Part shown: in pieces, positions 3,373-25,915 of the stretch
How positions within the stretch are numbered: the first letter of the stretch is position 1
Layout: each line of letters opens with the position of its first letter
Source: Pseudomonadota bacterium
GTDB taxonomy: Bacteria > Desulfobacterota > Desulfobulbia > Desulfobulbales > SURF-16
NCBI GenBank assembly: GCA_030597865.1
Contig: JAUVQZ010000003.1
Coordinates: forward strand, 1 to 33,209
DNA: 33,209 nucleotides
Direction of reading: 5' to 3'
The notes under the pieces: model-generated
Seen by the model: the letters and a program-made list of their open reading frames with translations, nothing else
Database searches by the model: none
Told to the model about the DNA's origin: nothing
Position numbers and translations under genes: made by a program

Positions 3373-3423
3373 AAAAAGCCCCAATGTCATAGCCTTAAGA
3401 GGCTTGATAAAGGGGCTTTTTTA
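3373..3423 (+). terminator. Rho-independent terminator after the acidic protein gene
   Basis: aaaaagcccc...ggggctttttt inverted repeat followed by a T-run. Confidence 0.75.
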
Positions 3424-3518
3424 TGTCCTGCGTTACGGGCCTCTGCCCTTCACCGGGCTTGGGGGTTTTGCGCCCTTGCAGAGTTTTAACAGGGGGCCCT
3501 GCATCCCTAAAATTGTCC

Positions 3519-3548
3519 TTGACAAGGGCAAGGCCTTTCGCGTAATGT
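3519..3548 (+). promoter_or_regulatory. Putative sigma-70-type promoter for tRNA-Phe
   Basis: TTGACA (3519-3524), 18-nt spacer, TAATGT (3543-3548, weak -10), 13 nt before the tRNA. Confidence 0.45.
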
Positions 3549-3561
3549 AGGCGCTCTTTTC

Positions 3562-3637
<76 letters not shown>

Positions 3638-3644
3638 AGACATT

Positions 3645-4423: not shown

Positions 4424-4771
4424 CTATTTGTCCAGACTGTCGGTGTTGTTTTTTTGGACTTGGGCGTTATGAATATAGTTGCGAATAGAATCGATTACAC
4501 TTTTGCGCCGACCAACCAATTCAAGACGATTTGACAGATCGTCTTCAGAAAAGTTGTCTTCTCTAACAAGACCGCCAAAGGCTTCCTCAAGAAAGGAAGA
4601 GCCATATCCAAGCGTTCCATCAAGTTCAATGACAATGGCATCATTTTTTTTGAGAGCTTTTTTGAGTAGGTTGCGCCTGAATCCCTCCCCGGTGAATTTC
4701 CCATCCTTCTGATACCTGCCGGCAGGATAAGCTGAAAATTCTTTGGAGATATTAATTATCTTTTTCTTCAT
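4424..4771 (-). CDS. STAS-like domain protein (DUF4325 type)
   Basis: 'AIVIELDGTLGYGSSFLEEAFGGLVRE' matches the DUF4325 signature (DGxxGYGSSFLEEAFGGLVR) from memory. Overlaps the upstream ATPase gene by 20 bp. Confidence 0.8.
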   Translation of the reverse strand: MKKKIINISKEFSAYPAGRYQKDGKFTGEGFRRNLLKKALKKNDAIVIELDGTLGYGSSFLEEAFGGLVREDNFSEDDLSNRLELVGRRKSVIDSIRNYIHNAQVQKNNTDSLDK

Positions 4772-5855
4772 CTGATTTGCTTCCTATTGATGGCAGCGCG
4801 TCTAGAGGAACGCTCCAAGCTACGACCGTGCCCATTATAGAATCTTTAAAATTGCGTGAACGTTCAATGTTTTCTTTACCATTGCCCTCATAAACATACA
4901 CACCTTTTTGGCTAAAAATACCAAGTCTGCCACTATGCGTAAAGTCAATAAAGTTTTTCAACTCCACCATTCCCAGGCCTCTATGGGGTTGATATGATCT
5001 GCTCCGCCCTTCTTCCATTGCAACTTCAATTAGTCTGCTGTGATTGTCAGATTTGAATAAAGATTTGAATTTTTGAAATAAGTCTGGGTGTTTATTCTTC
5101 AGGGAGCTGGGGATGCCTACTCCAAGATCACAAACAATAACATGTAGAATTTTGTCCTTGATCCCGGTAAACATCCACCATTTTTTCTTACCATAGAGGT
5201 GTGTGTGTGTTCCATCGTCGGGATAGGCGTGCATTACAGAGTTAGTAATTGCTTCACCGACACCGGTGAACAAGATATCCGTCACGCTATCATTAAGGCT
5301 GTGCATTTTTGCTACCTCAACAATAAGTTTTCCGGCTTTATCCGCTTCTATCTTAGTCCCATGCGTATGTTGCCAGCAAACTACGTCCTTGTCTGTTATG
5401 GGTATATTCTCCCTGATGCCGAGGAGGTCAGAAAGGCCAACCTGATGGAAAACTTGTGCTGTGACAGGGTCTTTTGGACTGTTCCCTCGGATAAATTTAT
5501 TGCCTTTTATGCTTTTGATTCTGTCAATCTCAGCTTGCACTAAAATAAAACCAACAACTTCTGCTTTATTTGATTTGCTGAAGTCTATAAAAACTGGCTG
5601 ATTTTTGTTTATCGTTGTTCTGCGAAGTTTGTATAGCCAAGGCAAAAGGCAATTCATGCCATCGGATGAACTGCACCCTAACTCATTTGGCCCAAGAATA
5701 GTCTTGTAGTTTATACTTTCAAATTCACGATAATAGCTGTGGCTTTTAATTCTGTTTCTATATTTTTTTTTGTCTTTGGTTCGTTTGTTTCTTTTCCTTC
5801 TCTTTTTTGAAATTCGCAAAAAACGAATCCGTTGTTCTTGGAGGATTTTTTTCAT
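4752..5855 (-). CDS. GHKL/HATPase-type ATP-binding protein with a possible N-terminal STAS-like region
   Basis: N-box-like 'VGEAITNSVMHAYPDDG', G1-like 'VIVCDLGVGIPSSL', G2-like 'RGLGMVELKNFI', 'GTVVAWSVPL'. No HisKA-like H-box. Confidence 0.75.
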   Translation of the reverse strand: MKKILQEQRIRFLRISKKRRKRNKRTKDKKKYRNRIKSHSYYREFESINYKTILGPNELGCSSSDGMNCLLPWLYKLRRTTINKNQPVFIDFSKSNKAEVVGFILVQAEIDRIKSIKGNKFIRGNSPKDPVTAQVFHQVGLSDLLGIRENIPITDKDVVCWQHTHGTKIEADKAGKLIVEVAKMHSLNDSVTDILFTGVGEAITNSVMHAYPDDGTHTHLYGKKKWWMFTGIKDKILHVIVCDLGVGIPSSLKNKHPDLFQKFKSLFKSDNHSRLIEVAMEEGRSRSYQPHRGLGMVELKNFIDFTHSGRLGIFSQKGVYVYEGNGKENIERSRNFKDSIMGTVVAWSVPLDALPSIGSKSDEEKDN

Positions 5856-6431: not shown

Positions 6432-7149
6432 ACCCATTATTGATGACTTTACTTCTTTCCGTGACATTCCTTAAGCATGGCAAGAATGAAAAGAGTAGTG
6501 GTTCCAGGCTACCCACATCATGTTGTTCAGCGTGGAGTTCGCTCTATGGATATTTTTTTCCATGACGATGATAGGCGAGAGTATTTGCAACTCCTCCGCA
6601 CACAATCACAACGATTTGGGGTGCAGTTTATCTCATATTGCCTTATGGCAAATCATGTCCATTTATTTGCAATCCCAGAACAATCAGACGAGCTTAGCTC
6701 GTGCCATCGGTGAAGCTCATCGGCTTTACACTCGGATGATAAATTTTAGAAAAAAAGACCGAGGGTATTTGTTTCAAGGGCGCTTCTCCTCCTGTCCTGT
6801 GCAAACAGGAGAATATCTTTATGCGGCAGTCCGCTATGTAGAACGCAATCCGGTAAGGGCAAAAATGGTTTTGCATCCCTGGGACTTTCCATGGTCAAGT
6901 GCTGCATTTCATGCAGGAACAATTGACCATGATCCACTTGTCGTCGAATCGCCACTATTGTCTGAAATAAATGCTTGGCAAGATTTTTTAAGTACAGACT
7001 CTGACCTATGCGGCGAATTAAAACAAAAAAGCCGCACTGGTCGACCTTGTGGTACAGATCATTTTTTTGCGACAGTTGAGAGAATTTCAGGCCGAGATCT
7101 ACGCCCCCAATCACCTGGTCGTCCGCGCAATAAATAGTATTAGGTCCCC
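6421..7149 (+). mobile_element. REP-associated tyrosine transposase (RAYT) element bounded by inverted ends
   Basis: ggggacataatac (6421-6433) and gtattaggtcccc (7137-7149) are inverted with 12/13 matches and flank the transposase. Confidence 0.65.
6477..7137 (+). pseudogene. Frameshifted Y1 (IS200-like/RAYT) transposase
   Basis: Frame 1: MARMKRVVVPGYPHHVVQRGVRSMDIFF...ISYCLMANHVHLFAIPEQSDE. It continues in another frame as LARAIGEAHRLYTRMINFRKKDRGYLFQGRFSSCPV...YVERNPVRAKMV...PWSSAAFH. Extra base near 6697 (gagcttAgctcgtgcc). Confidence 0.85.
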
Positions 7150-7168: not shown

Positions 7169-7819
7169 TTATACCTGTTGAAATAATTGCCAGCCATATA
7201 TCGCGGTGAGAATTAAGGTGTAAAGCATTAGGGCATAATACCAGCGACCGGCAAATTTAGGGGTCTTGACAGGCGCGACATTAAAAGCGGCCAGGACCAT
7301 AAGCAGGATATAGAGGGCAGCCGTAAAAAAAGTTTGCTCGACCATGCCGTTAAATATAAAGGCACCGGTCAGAATGACAACATTGTTATCCAGGGCCAGT
7401 CCCATATAGGTCGACTCGTCAACCAGACCGAAGACATTGAAGTAGCTGAGTCGGAGTACCCCGGTGGCGACAATAATAAAGGCTCCTGGTAGGAACCAGG
7501 GGCTGAAATGCCCGTAGCTTAACAGAATAATGGCCGGACAGATACTGAAGCTGACAATGTCGATTAGGGAATCTAGCTGCCCCCCGAACTCTCGCTGTTT
7601 ATCGTTCCGCCCTTTCAACCGCCGGGCAATAATGCCATCGGTCCAATCAAAGAATACCGCCCATATCAGGCCGATCATCGCGGCTGGAAAGATGCCAAGT
7701 ATTGCATAATAAATAGCGAGGACCGCGCATAGAAGTCCGGCCAGAGAACAGATATTCGGCAGATCTTTGGCAAAAGAGAGTATGGAGACCGGGGTGTCCG
7801 TTGAGTTAGGACTTGCCAT
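7169..7819 (-). CDS. CDP-alcohol phosphatidyltransferase family membrane protein
   Basis: DWTDGIIARRLKGRNDKQREFGGQLDSLID matches D(x2)DG(x2)AR...G(x3)D(x3)D, with an AR-to-G gap of 12 residues. Multiple TM helices. Confidence 0.85.
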   Translation of the reverse strand: MASPNSTDTPVSILSFAKDLPNICSLAGLLCAVLAIYYAILGIFPAAMIGLIWAVFFDWTDGIIARRLKGRNDKQREFGGQLDSLIDIVSFSICPAIILLSYGHFSPWFLPGAFIIVATGVLRLSYFNVFGLVDESTYMGLALDNNVVILTGAFIFNGMVEQTFFTAALYILLMVLAAFNVAPVKTPKFAGRWYYALMLYTLILTAIYGWQLFQQV

Positions 7820-8922
7820 TATGTGCCCTCTGGGCCAATAACATCGCGCAATGCTTCGACTAATTTTTTGTTTTCTTCCTGGGTTCGGCTGGCTATGCGG
7901 AGATAACGGTCAGATTCCGGCATGGTCTTACCCTGGCAGTGTTTCAGGTAGATATTGTGTTTAATAAACAATTTTTCGGCAATTTCTGGACCAGATGCAG
8001 CGTGATCGGGCAGGCGACAGAAAATATAATTGGCGTCAGGTCGGTAGACGGTCATGCCCGGGATCGTTTGGAGTAGTTCATGAAAATGATCACGATCCGC
8101 CATGACCTTGTTGCAGCTAGCCTTGAATTCCGGCTCATATTGTGGGGAAAGACGCAGAAATTCTTCGGCAAAGCCATTAATATTCCAAATATGCAGTCCT
8201 TGGCGGACTTTTGTGGCAAAATCATGGTTGGCGGTAAGCATGTAGCCAATCCGAATGCCGCAGATGCCATAGGCCTTGCTCATGCTTTTGAAAATGGCCA
8301 GGTTTGGGTGTTTGTCAAGTTCTGTTGCCAAGGTCTCTTGGTCACACTCTTTGGCAAAATCAATGAAAGATTCATCAACGATGAGCATGCAGTCGTGATC
8401 TGCCAATTTCTTAAGTAAGCGAACAAGTTCCACCTTTGGGACCAGCAATGAGGTTGGATTATTCGGCGAAACCACCACTGCCAAACCCGCCTTACAACGG
8501 ATGGCTTCGGCTGCGAATTTGTCAACGTCCAACTGAAAGGAGGGGGCTTCAAGGGCAAATTCAACGACATCGCCGGCAGGCATGGCATTGGCGTATTCAT
8601 TGAACGACGGAACTGGCACAATCAATTTGCGGCCCAGGCCGGCGATAATCTTGATAAGCTCTGCGGCCCCATTACCGACGACAAGGTGCTTTGCTGGCTG
8701 ATTGATCAGCTTGCCCACCAGACCGGCCAGGTCACTTTGGGCAATGGGATAGTTTAACACCAACTGCTTTATTTGCTTGGTAATATGGGCGAAAAAATCC
8801 TCTGGTGGGAAATAGAGGTTGTAGAGGTAGTTGTGGTCGATGAAATCATGCCGCCAATAGCCGCCATGCTGACTGGAGACGAAATCGTAGCGCTCTTGAT
8901 CGGTGGAGTATTTGTTTGTCAT
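7819..8922 (-). CDS. HisC/CobD-like class I/II PLP-dependent aminotransferase or decarboxylase
   Basis: 'SSQHGGYW', 'VVVSPNNPTS', 'IVDESFIDFA', 'FKSMSKAYGICGIRIGYM' (Schiff-base Lys). Stop overlaps the next start (TAATG). Confidence 0.85.
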   Translation of the reverse strand: MTNKYSTDQERYDFVSSQHGGYWRHDFIDHNYLYNLYFPPEDFFAHITKQIKQLVLNYPIAQSDLAGLVGKLINQPAKHLVVGNGAAELIKIIAGLGRKLIVPVPSFNEYANAMPAGDVVEFALEAPSFQLDVDKFAAEAIRCKAGLAVVVSPNNPTSLLVPKVELVRLLKKLADHDCMLIVDESFIDFAKECDQETLATELDKHPNLAIFKSMSKAYGICGIRIGYMLTANHDFATKVRQGLHIWNINGFAEEFLRLSPQYEPEFKASCNKVMADRDHFHELLQTIPGMTVYRPDANYIFCRLPDHAASGPEIAEKLFIKHNIYLKHCQGKTMPESDRYLRIASRTQEENKKLVEALRDVIGPEGT

Positions 8923-8944
8923 TTGAGGTCTATTTATTGTCTGA

Positions 8945-9859
8945 TTATGATGCTATGGGTGTTGCCACCTGACTGGCGGGATAAATGGGGGGTGTTTTTT
9001 TGAGTCGGTCAATGACTGGTAACCGCCTAGGTACAGGTTGATCATTCTGGCCTTTTTGCTTAAGTGGCTTATGGGCAGTTTCCGGGACTGCTGGCTGTTG
9101 ATAGTGACTGCATACTTTGGTCGCAGCCTGCAGGTCCGCAATAGTATCAATCTCATACCAGCGATTGGCATCAAAGAAGACCGGGGCAAGGGATAGGCAA
9201 CCCTCGCTGACCATATCAGCGAAGATTGTTTCGTAATAGCCATTGACCATATTATTGGCAATATGGTGGTCTAATCTTTCTTGAACCCGTTGCCAGGTTA
9301 GGCTGGAAAGGCTGTATATATTGACGGTCTTGTAATGATTATCATCAGTTTTTTTATTGTTGGCCTGAAAGGCCTTAATCTTCTGGTGATTATTGATGGT
9401 CACTGTGGTGCCGTTCATCCAGGGCTGCAACCGGGAGATTGCGATCCGATCAGGCTGGAGCATATCCTCAAGCATTTTCGGGTCGAAAACAAGATCGCTC
9501 TCAATGAGCAGAAAAGGTTCATCTATTGCCTTGCTGGCCAGCCATAATGAGTAAATATTGTTGGTGGTCTTGTATAAGGGGCTGGCGATATAGGTGATTT
9601 CCATATTCCCGGCTCTGGTTCCAAGGAAATTGCGGATAGAATCACCCTGGTGACCGATGACAATAACCAGGCGCTTAAAGTTATGTGATTGGAGAGCGGC
9701 AACTAGCCTGTCAAGAATAGAGTTATTATCAACTTGCACTAAACATTTGGGTACGTTGTCGGTTAGAGGGGCCAGGCGACTGCCTGTTCCTGCTGCCAAC
9801 AGTAGAGCGGTTTGGACATGTGTTTTTTCTAGGCCTGGATGGTTAAGCAGATTCTTCAT
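8945..9859 (-). CDS. LicC/PntC-like phospho-alcohol (phosphocholine/aminoethylphosphonate type) cytidylyltransferase
   Basis: 'TALLLAAGTGSRLAPLTDNVPKCLVQV', 'SPLYKTTNNIYSLWLA', 'LLIESDLVFDPKML', 'RWYEIDTIADL'. Confidence 0.85.
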   Translation of the reverse strand: MKNLLNHPGLEKTHVQTALLLAAGTGSRLAPLTDNVPKCLVQVDNNSILDRLVAALQSHNFKRLVIVIGHQGDSIRNFLGTRAGNMEITYIASPLYKTTNNIYSLWLASKAIDEPFLLIESDLVFDPKMLEDMLQPDRIAISRLQPWMNGTTVTINNHQKIKAFQANNKKTDDNHYKTVNIYSLSSLTWQRVQERLDHHIANNMVNGYYETIFADMVSEGCLSLAPVFFDANRWYEIDTIADLQAATKVCSHYQQPAVPETAHKPLKQKGQNDQPVPRRLPVIDRLKKTPPIYPASQVATPIAS

Positions 9860-23344: not shown

Positions 23345-24682
23345 ATGGCAGATGCTAGTCTCCAGACAGAGTCATGGCCGTTGGCCGGTGAAGCTCTCCA
23401 TGAAGAGCAGCCCATTTTCTCATGCCGGCCGGATTCCCTGTCCTTTGCCCAGGCAACATACTATCAGGATCTCCTCTATCGTACCCTGAAGATCGGGACA
23501 GAGCTTGAGTTTGCCCTGCCACAAAGGGTCAGGCGTGAGGATCTTGAAAAGGAGTTGACTGCTGAACTCAAGCCATCCCAGGATATGAACAACCTGGGAC
23601 GGCTTGGTGTTTTTGATATTTCCAAGGAACATTGCGGTATTGAGATTCGGGTGATCGGTCGCCATCCTCACTGGGATGCCCAGGTTCACCAGTACCGCCA
23701 GATCATGGCTCCCCTCTGGCGCAACAAGGTGCGCATGCGCCCTACCTGCGGTCTCCATTTTCACCTCCTTGGTGTCGGCCTCTCTGAACCGGTGCCGGAA
23801 ATCATTCTTGCCAATCTCTGGAACATCATGCGGCGCTATGGACCTGGCCTGAAATTTCTGACCAGCGGCGGTGAGTCCACGGCTGCCCTGTGCCGGCGAC
23901 GCCAGCATAATGCCCATCAGGAATTTATGCGCCGAGGCCCGGAGTCCCTCACCGTTGCGGAGATCCAGCAGCACCTCAAGAAAAGTTTCGACGTTCCTGA
24001 GCACCAAAACTTTTTCAACCTGGAGCATCTTCGTTTTAACGATAAGGGAGAGATTTCCACCTTCCATGTGGAGTTTCGTTTCCCGGATGGTGATCTCTCC
24101 CCCCTGTCCATCACTGCCAAGGTCTTTCTCTTTTTGGTCATGATGTTAAAGGCGGTGGAAATTTCAAAATTCGGCCTTCTCCATGTGGGCAAGACATCCC
24201 AGTGGCAACGCAAGAAAGAACTGTTGGACCTGATCAGCAATAATGACGGCAAGCTGGCCACCAGCGACACTGCGGCCTGTCTGCCATACCTTGACGAGTA
24301 CCGTCAAAACGCCTCAAGTTTATTACGATTTTTAAAATCAATCTTTATTCTTCTGGATAATCCCGCCGAGCTCATTCTCCAGTCCCTGGCTGAGAGCCCT
24401 ATATCCCTGCGGCGTCATAGGGGGCTTGACTGGCAACAGATCGATCAGGAGCTTCAGGGGCTGGTTGGCAGCGAGGAGAAGATGGATGAAGGTGATTACA
24501 AGCTCTGCAAAATAATTGAAATGGGCCTGGTGGAGCAAAAGGAAGATTTTCAGAGTTGGCTGGTCAGTGCCGCCTATCTCTGTAACTGTCCCCCTGAAGA
24601 GGTCAGCAAACGGCTGGAAAAATATGAGCGCCGCAACCCTATCTGGAGCCAGAAGTTGGGGTGTATGGTGTTTTTTCGATGA
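23345..24682 (+). CDS. Amidoligase-family (COOH-NH2 ligase, glutamine-synthetase-fold-like) protein
   Basis: 'KIGTELEFALP', 'HCGIEIRVIG', 'RMRPTCGLHFHLLGV', 'RRRQHN' match the amidoligase pattern (G-x-E-[IL]-E ... CGLHxH ... R) from memory. Confidence 0.75.
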   Translation: MADASLQTESWPLAGEALHEEQPIFSCRPDSLSFAQATYYQDLLYRTLKIGTELEFALPQRVRREDLEKELTAELKPSQDMNNLGRLGVFDISKEHCGIEIRVIGRHPHWDAQVHQYRQIMAPLWRNKVRMRPTCGLHFHLLGVGLSEPVPEIILANLWNIMRRYGPGLKFLTSGGESTAALCRRRQHNAHQEFMRRGPESLTVAEIQQHLKKSFDVPEHQNFFNLEHLRFNDKGEISTFHVEFRFPDGDLSPLSITAKVFLFLVMMLKAVEISKFGLLHVGKTSQWQRKKELLDLISNNDGKLATSDTAACLPYLDEYRQNASSLLRFLKSIFILLDNPAELILQSLAESPISLRRHRGLDWQQIDQELQGLVGSEEKMDEGDYKLCKIIEMGLVEQKEDFQSWLVSAAYLCNCPPEEVSKRLEKYERRNPIWSQKLGCMVFFR

Positions 24683-24718
24683 AAGATAAGAGAGGCCTTT
24701 TGGCATGAGGAGCAGGGA

Positions 24719-25504
24719 ATGTGTGGTTTAGCCGGGTGTCTTATCGGCGCAGGGGCAGGCCGGCAGGAGCGGGCGAGGATCAAGGAGATCTTCCTTGCCA
24801 ATCTCCTGGCCAATGAACAACGGGGCAGGGAGGCAACCGGCGTGGTTGCCTGCCAGAGGGATGGCTCTTTTTCCTATGAAAAGGGGGCCATGCCTGCCTC
24901 ATCCTTTGTTGAACAGGAGGGGTGTAAAAACTTCTTCAGCGAAAAAATATGCGGGGAAACCGTTATCCTGCTGGGCCATACCCGGGATCCAACCAAGGGC
25001 ACGGTGCATAATAACGACAATAACCACCCCATTGTGGTGGGGGAAACCGTGGGGATCCATAACGGGGTCATCTCCAACGATGATTCCATCTTTGTGACGC
25101 TGATGCAGGACGGCCAGGATCGGCCCAGGATCGGTTCGGTGGACAGTGAGGCCATTTTCGCCCTGTTGGATCAGGTAGATGCCAACCAGCCTCTTGCCGG
25201 GTTCTGCAAGGGGCTCCAGCAGGCAAGCAGCCAGCTCCTGGGTTCATTCACCACCCTGTTCTTTAACAGAAAGTTCCCCACGACACTTTTTTGTTTACGC
25301 TACGAGAATCCGATCTCGATCCATTATGATCAAGATCTTAAGAGCCTCTTTTTCTCTTCACGCTATGTCTTTTTGCGTAAAACCTTTGGTCGGGCGGTCA
25401 TCTCCCCGGGCATGCCCGGCCGGACAGGTTTTGTTTTTGAGGCTGAAAAAATGAAAACTCAGGGCAAGACGCCAACCCTTACCTTTGACCTAAGTCAGAA
25501 CTAA
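24719..25504 (+). CDS. Class II glutamine amidotransferase (Ntn hydrolase)
   Basis: MCGLAGCLIG (catalytic Cys2), 'NEQRGREATGVVA', 'LLGHTRDPTKGTVHNNDNNHPIVVGETVGIHNGVISND'. Confidence 0.9.
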   Translation: MCGLAGCLIGAGAGRQERARIKEIFLANLLANEQRGREATGVVACQRDGSFSYEKGAMPASSFVEQEGCKNFFSEKICGETVILLGHTRDPTKGTVHNNDNNHPIVVGETVGIHNGVISNDDSIFVTLMQDGQDRPRIGSVDSEAIFALLDQVDANQPLAGFCKGLQQASSQLLGSFTTLFFNRKFPTTLFCLRYENPISIHYDQDLKSLFFSSRYVFLRKTFGRAVISPGMPGRTGFVFEAEKMKTQGKTPTLTFDLSQN

Positions 25505-25519
25505 AATACAGAGGCAAAA

Positions 25520-25915
25520 ATGAACGTAGGATTAAAGGATATCTTGGTACACCTGGAGAAAGAGCTTCCCGGCTTTGTGGCCTCTGCGGTTGTTTCGGTG
25601 GAGGATGGCCTTCCCCTGGCAGAGTATACCAAGAATAGTAATTTTGAGGCCGGAGAGGCTGCCGCCTATCTGGCCAGCATCGTTAAATCAAATCGCAAGG
25701 CCATTAAACTGCTGGAAGGTGGCCAGGTTACCGATGATCTGCTGATCACCACGGACAAGAATTATTTTTTGATCAGGCATGGTGTTGATAAGTCTTTTTT
25801 TATCTTTCTGATGACCTCCAAAAGTGAATGGCTTGGCAAGGCCCGGCTGCTGATCAAGAAGTATGAAGCCCTCATCAATTACGTCATGGAGAAAAAAATG
25901 AGCAGCCAGGAATAG
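25520..25915 (+). CDS. Roadblock/LC7-like protein
   Basis: MNVGLKDILVHLEKELPGFVASAVVSVEDGLPLAEYTKNSNFEAGEAAAYLASIVKSNRKAIKLL... Confidence 0.75.
   Translation: MNVGLKDILVHLEKELPGFVASAVVSVEDGLPLAEYTKNSNFEAGEAAAYLASIVKSNRKAIKLLEGGQVTDDLLITTDKNYFLIRHGVDKSFFIFLMTSKSEWLGKARLLIKKYEALINYVMEKKMSSQE

Follow-up and report, generated by a model that had tools for sequence, protein, structure and literature searches.

A mobile three-gene module predicted to build a lipid head group from a decarboxylated phospho-amino acid in bacteria and methanogens

Three adjacent genes in the window (the whole stretch of DNA that was analysed, 33,209 nt) appear, judging from their sequences, to encode a route of lipid head-group synthesis that has not been described before. 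The window is the entire contig C8 of a 2.73 Mb genome that is 92.7% complete and consists of 299 contigs. In the simplest reading, to which we assign a probability of about 0.55, the operon would be a de novo Kennedy-like head-group pathway fed by decarboxylation of a phospho-amino acid. The module itself is real and widespread, and it is horizontally transferred across phyla and domains as a cassette.

The module consists of three intact ORFs, all on the minus strand, in an operon-like arrangement at 7169-9859. The ORFs and adjoining features are as follows.

8945..9859, minus strand: predicted LicC/PntC-like CTP:amino-alcohol-phosphate cytidylyltransferase (NTP enzyme), 304 aa; from Pfam PF00483/PF12804, PDB matches and conservation
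7819..8922, minus strand: CobD-like fold-type I PLP enzyme, predicted phosphoserine/phosphothreonine decarboxylase, 367 aa; from PF00155 and tree
7169..7819, minus strand: PS-synthase-like CDP-alcohol phosphatidyltransferase (third enzyme), 216 aa; from PF01066, tree and AF2 model
7817..7821, minus strand: TAATG stop/start overlap of the PLP and CDP genes (translational coupling); from the sequence
6520..7137, plus strand: convergent ORF immediately beyond the operon end, unrelated; no Pfam match

Pfam assigned the genes, in operon order, to NTP_transferase, Aminotran_1_2 and CDP-OH_P_transf. The NTP and PLP genes are separated by 22 bp (8923-8944), and both the coordinates and the sequence agree with the tightly coupled minus-strand trio that the earlier note had described, including the spacing of 22 bp and the overlapping TAATG. 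When the three genes were compared with those of two homologous loci, dN was 0.10-0.28 and dS was 0.65-1.4 (dN/dS ~0.10-0.22), indicating that the module genes are under purifying selection. Recurrence of the gene order, low dN/dS and co-evolution confirmed that the three-gene arrangement is a real operon and not a chance one. No Rfam RNA element was found at the operon, and promoter-like sites there were no more than at chance level.

Several other features of the window were noted as well. By eye, the convergent ORF at 6520-7137 (plus strand) resembles a REP-associated (Y1) transposase and is possibly a decayed insertion adjoining the module. Tightly spaced genes at 23345-25915 (plus strand) encode three proteins: one of 445 aa that has no Pfam match and resembles an amidoligase by eye, one that contains a glutamine amidotransferase domain (GATase_6), and a small one that resembles Roadblock proteins by eye. 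At 4424-5855 (minus strand), a histidine-kinase-like ATPase under the Pfam cut-off is followed by a STAS-like DUF4325 protein, forming a regulatory-looking pair. A tRNA-Phe(GAA) gene lies at 3562-3637 (plus strand), and the antisense ORF overlying it at 3395-3643 is spurious.

A genome scan with the PLP protein gathered 79 homologous loci with identity of 64-84%, and the NTP-PLP-CDP order was retained at essentially all complete loci. The nearest loci were mainly in Desulfobulbales-type records. According to record titles, bacterial carriers belong to Desulfobulbales, Desulfuromonadales, Pontiella (Kiritimatiellota), Bacteroidota, Ignavibacteriota, Planctomycetota, KSB1, Mariprofundus and Porticoccaceae, and archaeal carriers were the methanogens Methanococcoides and Methanosarcina (Methanosarcinaceae); many of the records are MAGs, and single taxonomic assignments are unsure. 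Named carrier strains include Pontiella sulfatireligans, Desulfosediminicola flagellatus, Methanococcoides seepicolus, Labilibacter marinus and Saccharicrinis aurantiacus. The distribution was patchy: a close orthologue was present in 14 of the 96 other genomes searched as relatives, in 2 of 296 other genomes sampled from the phylum, and in 17 of 112 genomes of the family to which the Methanosarcina genome belongs. Identity of the PLP protein between archaeal and bacterial records reached 88%. Distance matrices of the three proteins were strongly correlated (Mantel r 0.79-0.89; the highest value among 999 permutations was 0.14), and this correlated divergence indicated that the module travels as a unit. 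One Methanosarcina record (L099:9019-15341) holds the whole three-gene module twice, in tandem.

The earlier assignment of the first gene to a LicC/PntC-like cytidylyltransferase was borne out by PDB searches, in which the best match was LicC (1jyk, E 2.4e-13, full length) and the second was PntC (6pd1). In PntC, Glu104 and Glu196 are positioned toward the primary amine of AEP, and LicC has Asp105 and Asp192 (PMC6697681). E120 and E210 of the NTP enzyme align with the two glutamates of PntC, and neither varies among 75 orthologues. The aspartates of the LicC choline pocket are likewise matched by Glu in the NTP enzyme; at the first of these sites the LicC alignment was moved by one position, in agreement with the PntC alignment. 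This invariant Glu/Glu pocket of the PntC type predicts a small primary-amine substrate. The module differs from the LicC and PntC systems in that lic and ppm genes do not recur in its neighbourhood and the NTP enzyme is not fused to an aminotransferase.

The PLP enzyme had been proposed to be CobD-like from its HGG (residues 19-21) and DESFIDF (183-189) motifs. Its top NCBIfam model was CobD TIGR01140, at 178.4 bits and under the cut-off of 290.55. We built a tree with the module proteins, 6oux, and CobD and HisC proteins of related genomes. The module proteins formed a clade (100/99) that joined 6oux (98/95) on the CobD side, the branch of 6oux being long and represented by a fragment only, while HisC formed its own clade (100/99) apart from the module. 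Robust grouping with HisC, the outcome that would speak against a CobD-like enzyme, was thus absent. In addition, 21 positions, the HGG and 18 more, were common to the PLP enzyme and CobD and not to HisC. The catalytic Lys216 and R342, which corresponds to CobD Arg337, were invariant, whereas the position of CobD Arg323 is taken by an invariant Lys327. This replacement and the score under the CobD cut-off suggest that the substrate may differ from that of CobD. At least three carriers (G023, G058 and G090) hold separate CobD-like and HisC genes, so the PLP enzyme of the module is a third paralogue, and the source genome retains its own HisC. No recurrent cobamide gene was found among the neighbours of the 79 loci. 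The tree and the paralogues ruled out that the PLP enzyme is HisC or the organism's own CobD.

The best PDB match of the PLP enzyme was 6oux (E 2.8e-38), which from its name would be Sulfurospirillum SMUL_1544, an enzyme that reportedly decarboxylates serine phosphate. In PMC7755780 the product of SMUL_1544 is called 'threonine phosphate decarboxylase-like enzyme', which is also the name of 6oux, and a paper in the reference list of PMC6461909 states in its title that SMUL_1544 governs norcobamide synthesis.

The third enzyme passed PF01066 (46.6 bits against a cut-off of 22) and has all residues of the CDP-alcohol motif in the form DWTDGIIAR-x12-GGQLDSLID. The pattern DxxDGxxAR-x12-GxxxDxxxD was found in 70 of 70 module orthologues; the gap from AR to G was thus always 12 residues, whereas all remaining members of the family that were found in the source genome and eight other carriers have 7 or 8. 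The best models were archaetidylserine and phosphatidylserine synthases at 73-99 bits, under their cut-offs (75.5 bits with PssA TIGR00473, cut-off 107), and Pcs models scored only about 19-27 bits (27.4 bits with a cut-off of 350). In a tree of the family members of the source genome and eight carriers, which held no proven Pcs sequence, the third enzymes of the module formed a separate clade adjoining the phosphatidylserine and archaetidylserine synthases. The AF2 model (pLDDT 85.5) matched MjPSS best in Foldseek (7b1k, E 1.5e-7, TM ~0.7, end to end). Helices 7-8 and a beta-sheet enclose the lipid chains in MjPSS (PMC8633023), and the MjPSS-like fold therefore favours a lipid substrate for the third enzyme. 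Tree placement and model both uphold the proposal of a lipid-type CDP-alcohol phosphatidyltransferase. The 12-residue gap noticed earlier is also real and matches the AR-x12-G spacing of Pcs (PMC3972451), but the nearest relatives of the enzyme are PS and archaetidylserine synthases. Pcs proper, which uses CDP-DAG and choline, was ruled out by the model scores and by the place beside the PS synthases. Type II PssA and MjPSS are nearest to the module enzyme in clade and fold; it keeps the aspartates of the motif and Arg101 of MjPSS, but has AR-x12-G instead of x8, Tyr for MjPSS Arg104, and an invariant DNN (144-146) where PS synthases carry a GLPxP-type loop.

The genomic background bears on the supply of the head group. 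In the source genome psd and pssA lie side by side on contig C133, and Psd was present in 27 of 29 carriers, indicating that the module supplements the usual way of making PE rather than substituting for it. A bypass made necessary by missing Psd is thereby ruled out, and the module does not replace phosphatidylserine decarboxylase, which the earlier note had seen as bypassed. Choline/ethanolamine kinase scored over the cut-off in one of the 29 carriers and was not found in the source genome, and this near-absence makes the PLP enzyme the probable source of the phospho-amine. Of the overall interpretation put forward in the earlier note, the operon and the three enzyme families stood, while replacement of Psd and the phosphonate route did not; the presence in archaea and the ATP-grasp, methyltransferase and LicD partners went beyond what that note had seen.

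Accessory genes were found downstream of the module. An ATP-grasp-type protein of about 423 aa was encoded in 26 loci, both bacterial and archaeal; its sequence hints at the amino-acid/amine ligases LdmS, BesA and MfnD, and a structural model of moderate confidence (pLDDT 74) matched BesA and other ATP-grasp peptide ligases best. When 29 genomes were searched, this gene was confined to the module or to a contig end completing a split copy. A SAM methyltransferase was encoded in 10 loci, all without the ATP-grasp gene; the two never occurred together (p ~0.008, a value that treats the loci as independent although they are not). Neither accessory gene is present in about half of the loci, the source locus among them, and tblastn across the 33,209-nt source sequence detected no homologue or remnant of either. 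These partners suggest tailoring of the head group.

The third gene is replaced in some loci. In a verrucomicrobial locus (L132:3-3548) LicD and a different CDP-alcohol transferase-like ORF come after the NTP and PLP genes. In L121:9029-12888 and L108:4035-6906 a class III aminotransferase gene takes the place of the third gene after NTP and PLP, a hint that the CDP-amino alcohol may be put to a different use there. Such replacements are expected if the first two genes make an activated amino-alcohol phosphate.

In the pathway that we propose, the CobD/SMUL_1544-like PLP enzyme would decarboxylate O-phospho-L-serine to ethanolamine phosphate or, alternatively, phosphothreonine to 1-amino-2-propanol phosphate. 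The PntC-like enzyme would then activate the product with CTP to CDP-ethanolamine (or CDP-aminopropanol), and the PS-synthase-like membrane enzyme would transfer the phospho-amino alcohol to a lipid alcohol, which may be diacylglycerol, dialkylglycerol or archaeol, with release of CMP. The pathway would operate alongside PssA/Psd, and its product would probably be tailored by the ATP-grasp ligase or the methyltransferase in many hosts. We infer all of the reactions, as well as whether phosphoserine or phosphothreonine is used, which lipid serves as acceptor and which way the third step runs. The PS-synthase relatives of the third enzyme use CDP-DAG as donor and require no separate cytidylyltransferase, so the third step would require the lipid to be the acceptor, which counts against this scheme. 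In the Kennedy pathway, including LicCA-CPT of Treponema denticola, a CTP-activated phospho-amino alcohol is moved to lipid by a CDP-alcohol phosphotransferase (PMC8590670). The predicted pathway shares CTP activation of a phospho-amino alcohol and subsequent transfer to lipid, but the phospho-amine apparently comes from decarboxylation of a phospho-amino acid and not from a kinase, and the transferase is PS-synthase-like. No report of a lipid route through a serine-phosphate decarboxylase was found in the open-access papers that were searched.

Other readings share parts of this scheme. PssA/Psd already provides carriers with PE, so it is not obvious what another pathway to plain PE would be for, and a different or tailored head group is quite possible. 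The reading in which the first two steps are unchanged and the product is a distinct head group, such as an aminopropanol lipid from phosphothreonine or an ethanolamine that is aminoacylated or N-methylated through the downstream ATP-grasp enzyme or methyltransferase, seems less likely as a whole than the main reading. The coexistence of Psd, the restriction of the BesA/peptide-ligase-like ATP-grasp gene to the module and the mutual exclusion of the two accessory genes speak for it, but about half of the loci lack both genes, the ATP-grasp model is of moderate confidence, and the present data do not separate phosphoserine from phosphothreonine. It is doubtful that the third enzyme is instead CDP-DAG-dependent, as Pcs and Pss are, and acts on a free amino alcohol, the CDP-amino alcohol from the first two genes having some other destination such as a glycan: its nearest relatives are CDP-DAG-dependent and its motif spacing is that of Pcs, but the three genes stay together and co-evolve, and no recurrent glycan transferase was found beside the module except at the one LicD locus.

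The pairing of an NTP transferase with a CDP-alcohol transferase also recalls IPCT-DIPPS of di-myo-inositol phosphate synthesis, and the product might be a soluble, osmolyte-like phosphodiester with a small alcohol as acceptor. The NTP enzyme does match IPCT in model and PDB searches, and many carriers are of marine, vent or saline origin according to record titles. We consider this improbable, because the third enzyme groups with PS/archaetidylserine synthases, and its model is far nearer to the lipid-enclosing MjPSS than to IPCT-DIPPS (E 0.056), PIP synthases also being far poorer matches. Least probable by far is a phosphonolipid, in which a PntC-type enzyme would activate AEP for its attachment to lipid. 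The amine pocket of the NTP enzyme is PntC-like, but the PLP enzyme is CobD-like and not an AEP transaminase, and PEP mutase exceeded the cut-off in only two of the 29 carriers; in the source genome the best match reached 102.7 bits against a cut-off of 319.6. This near-absence makes a phosphonate route unlikely, and the AEP alternative raised in the earlier note is close to excluded.

Beyond the Kennedy-like head-group pathway, we tentatively entertain a broader reading, in which the module would be a mobile bacterial and methanogen pathway whose starting step, decarboxylation of a phospho-amino acid, leads to ether or ester lipids of a new amino-alcohol class that are then tailored. The module-specific ATP-grasp enzyme might aminoacylate the lipid, or the methyltransferase methylate it, so that the head group would be made neither by PssA/Psd nor by the Kennedy pathway with its kinase, and the PS-synthase-like enzyme might have switched its donor from a CDP-lipid to a CDP-amino alcohol. 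If the proposed head-group pathway is right, it would be a third logic of amino-phospholipid synthesis, in which the amino alcohol is made in free form by decarboxylation of a phospho-amino acid, in contrast with synthesis on the lipid (Psd) and with salvage followed by a kinase (Kennedy). Present in many bacterial phyla and in Methanosarcinaceae, it would also be an unusually mobile part of membrane metabolism, serving both bacterial and archaeal lipids.
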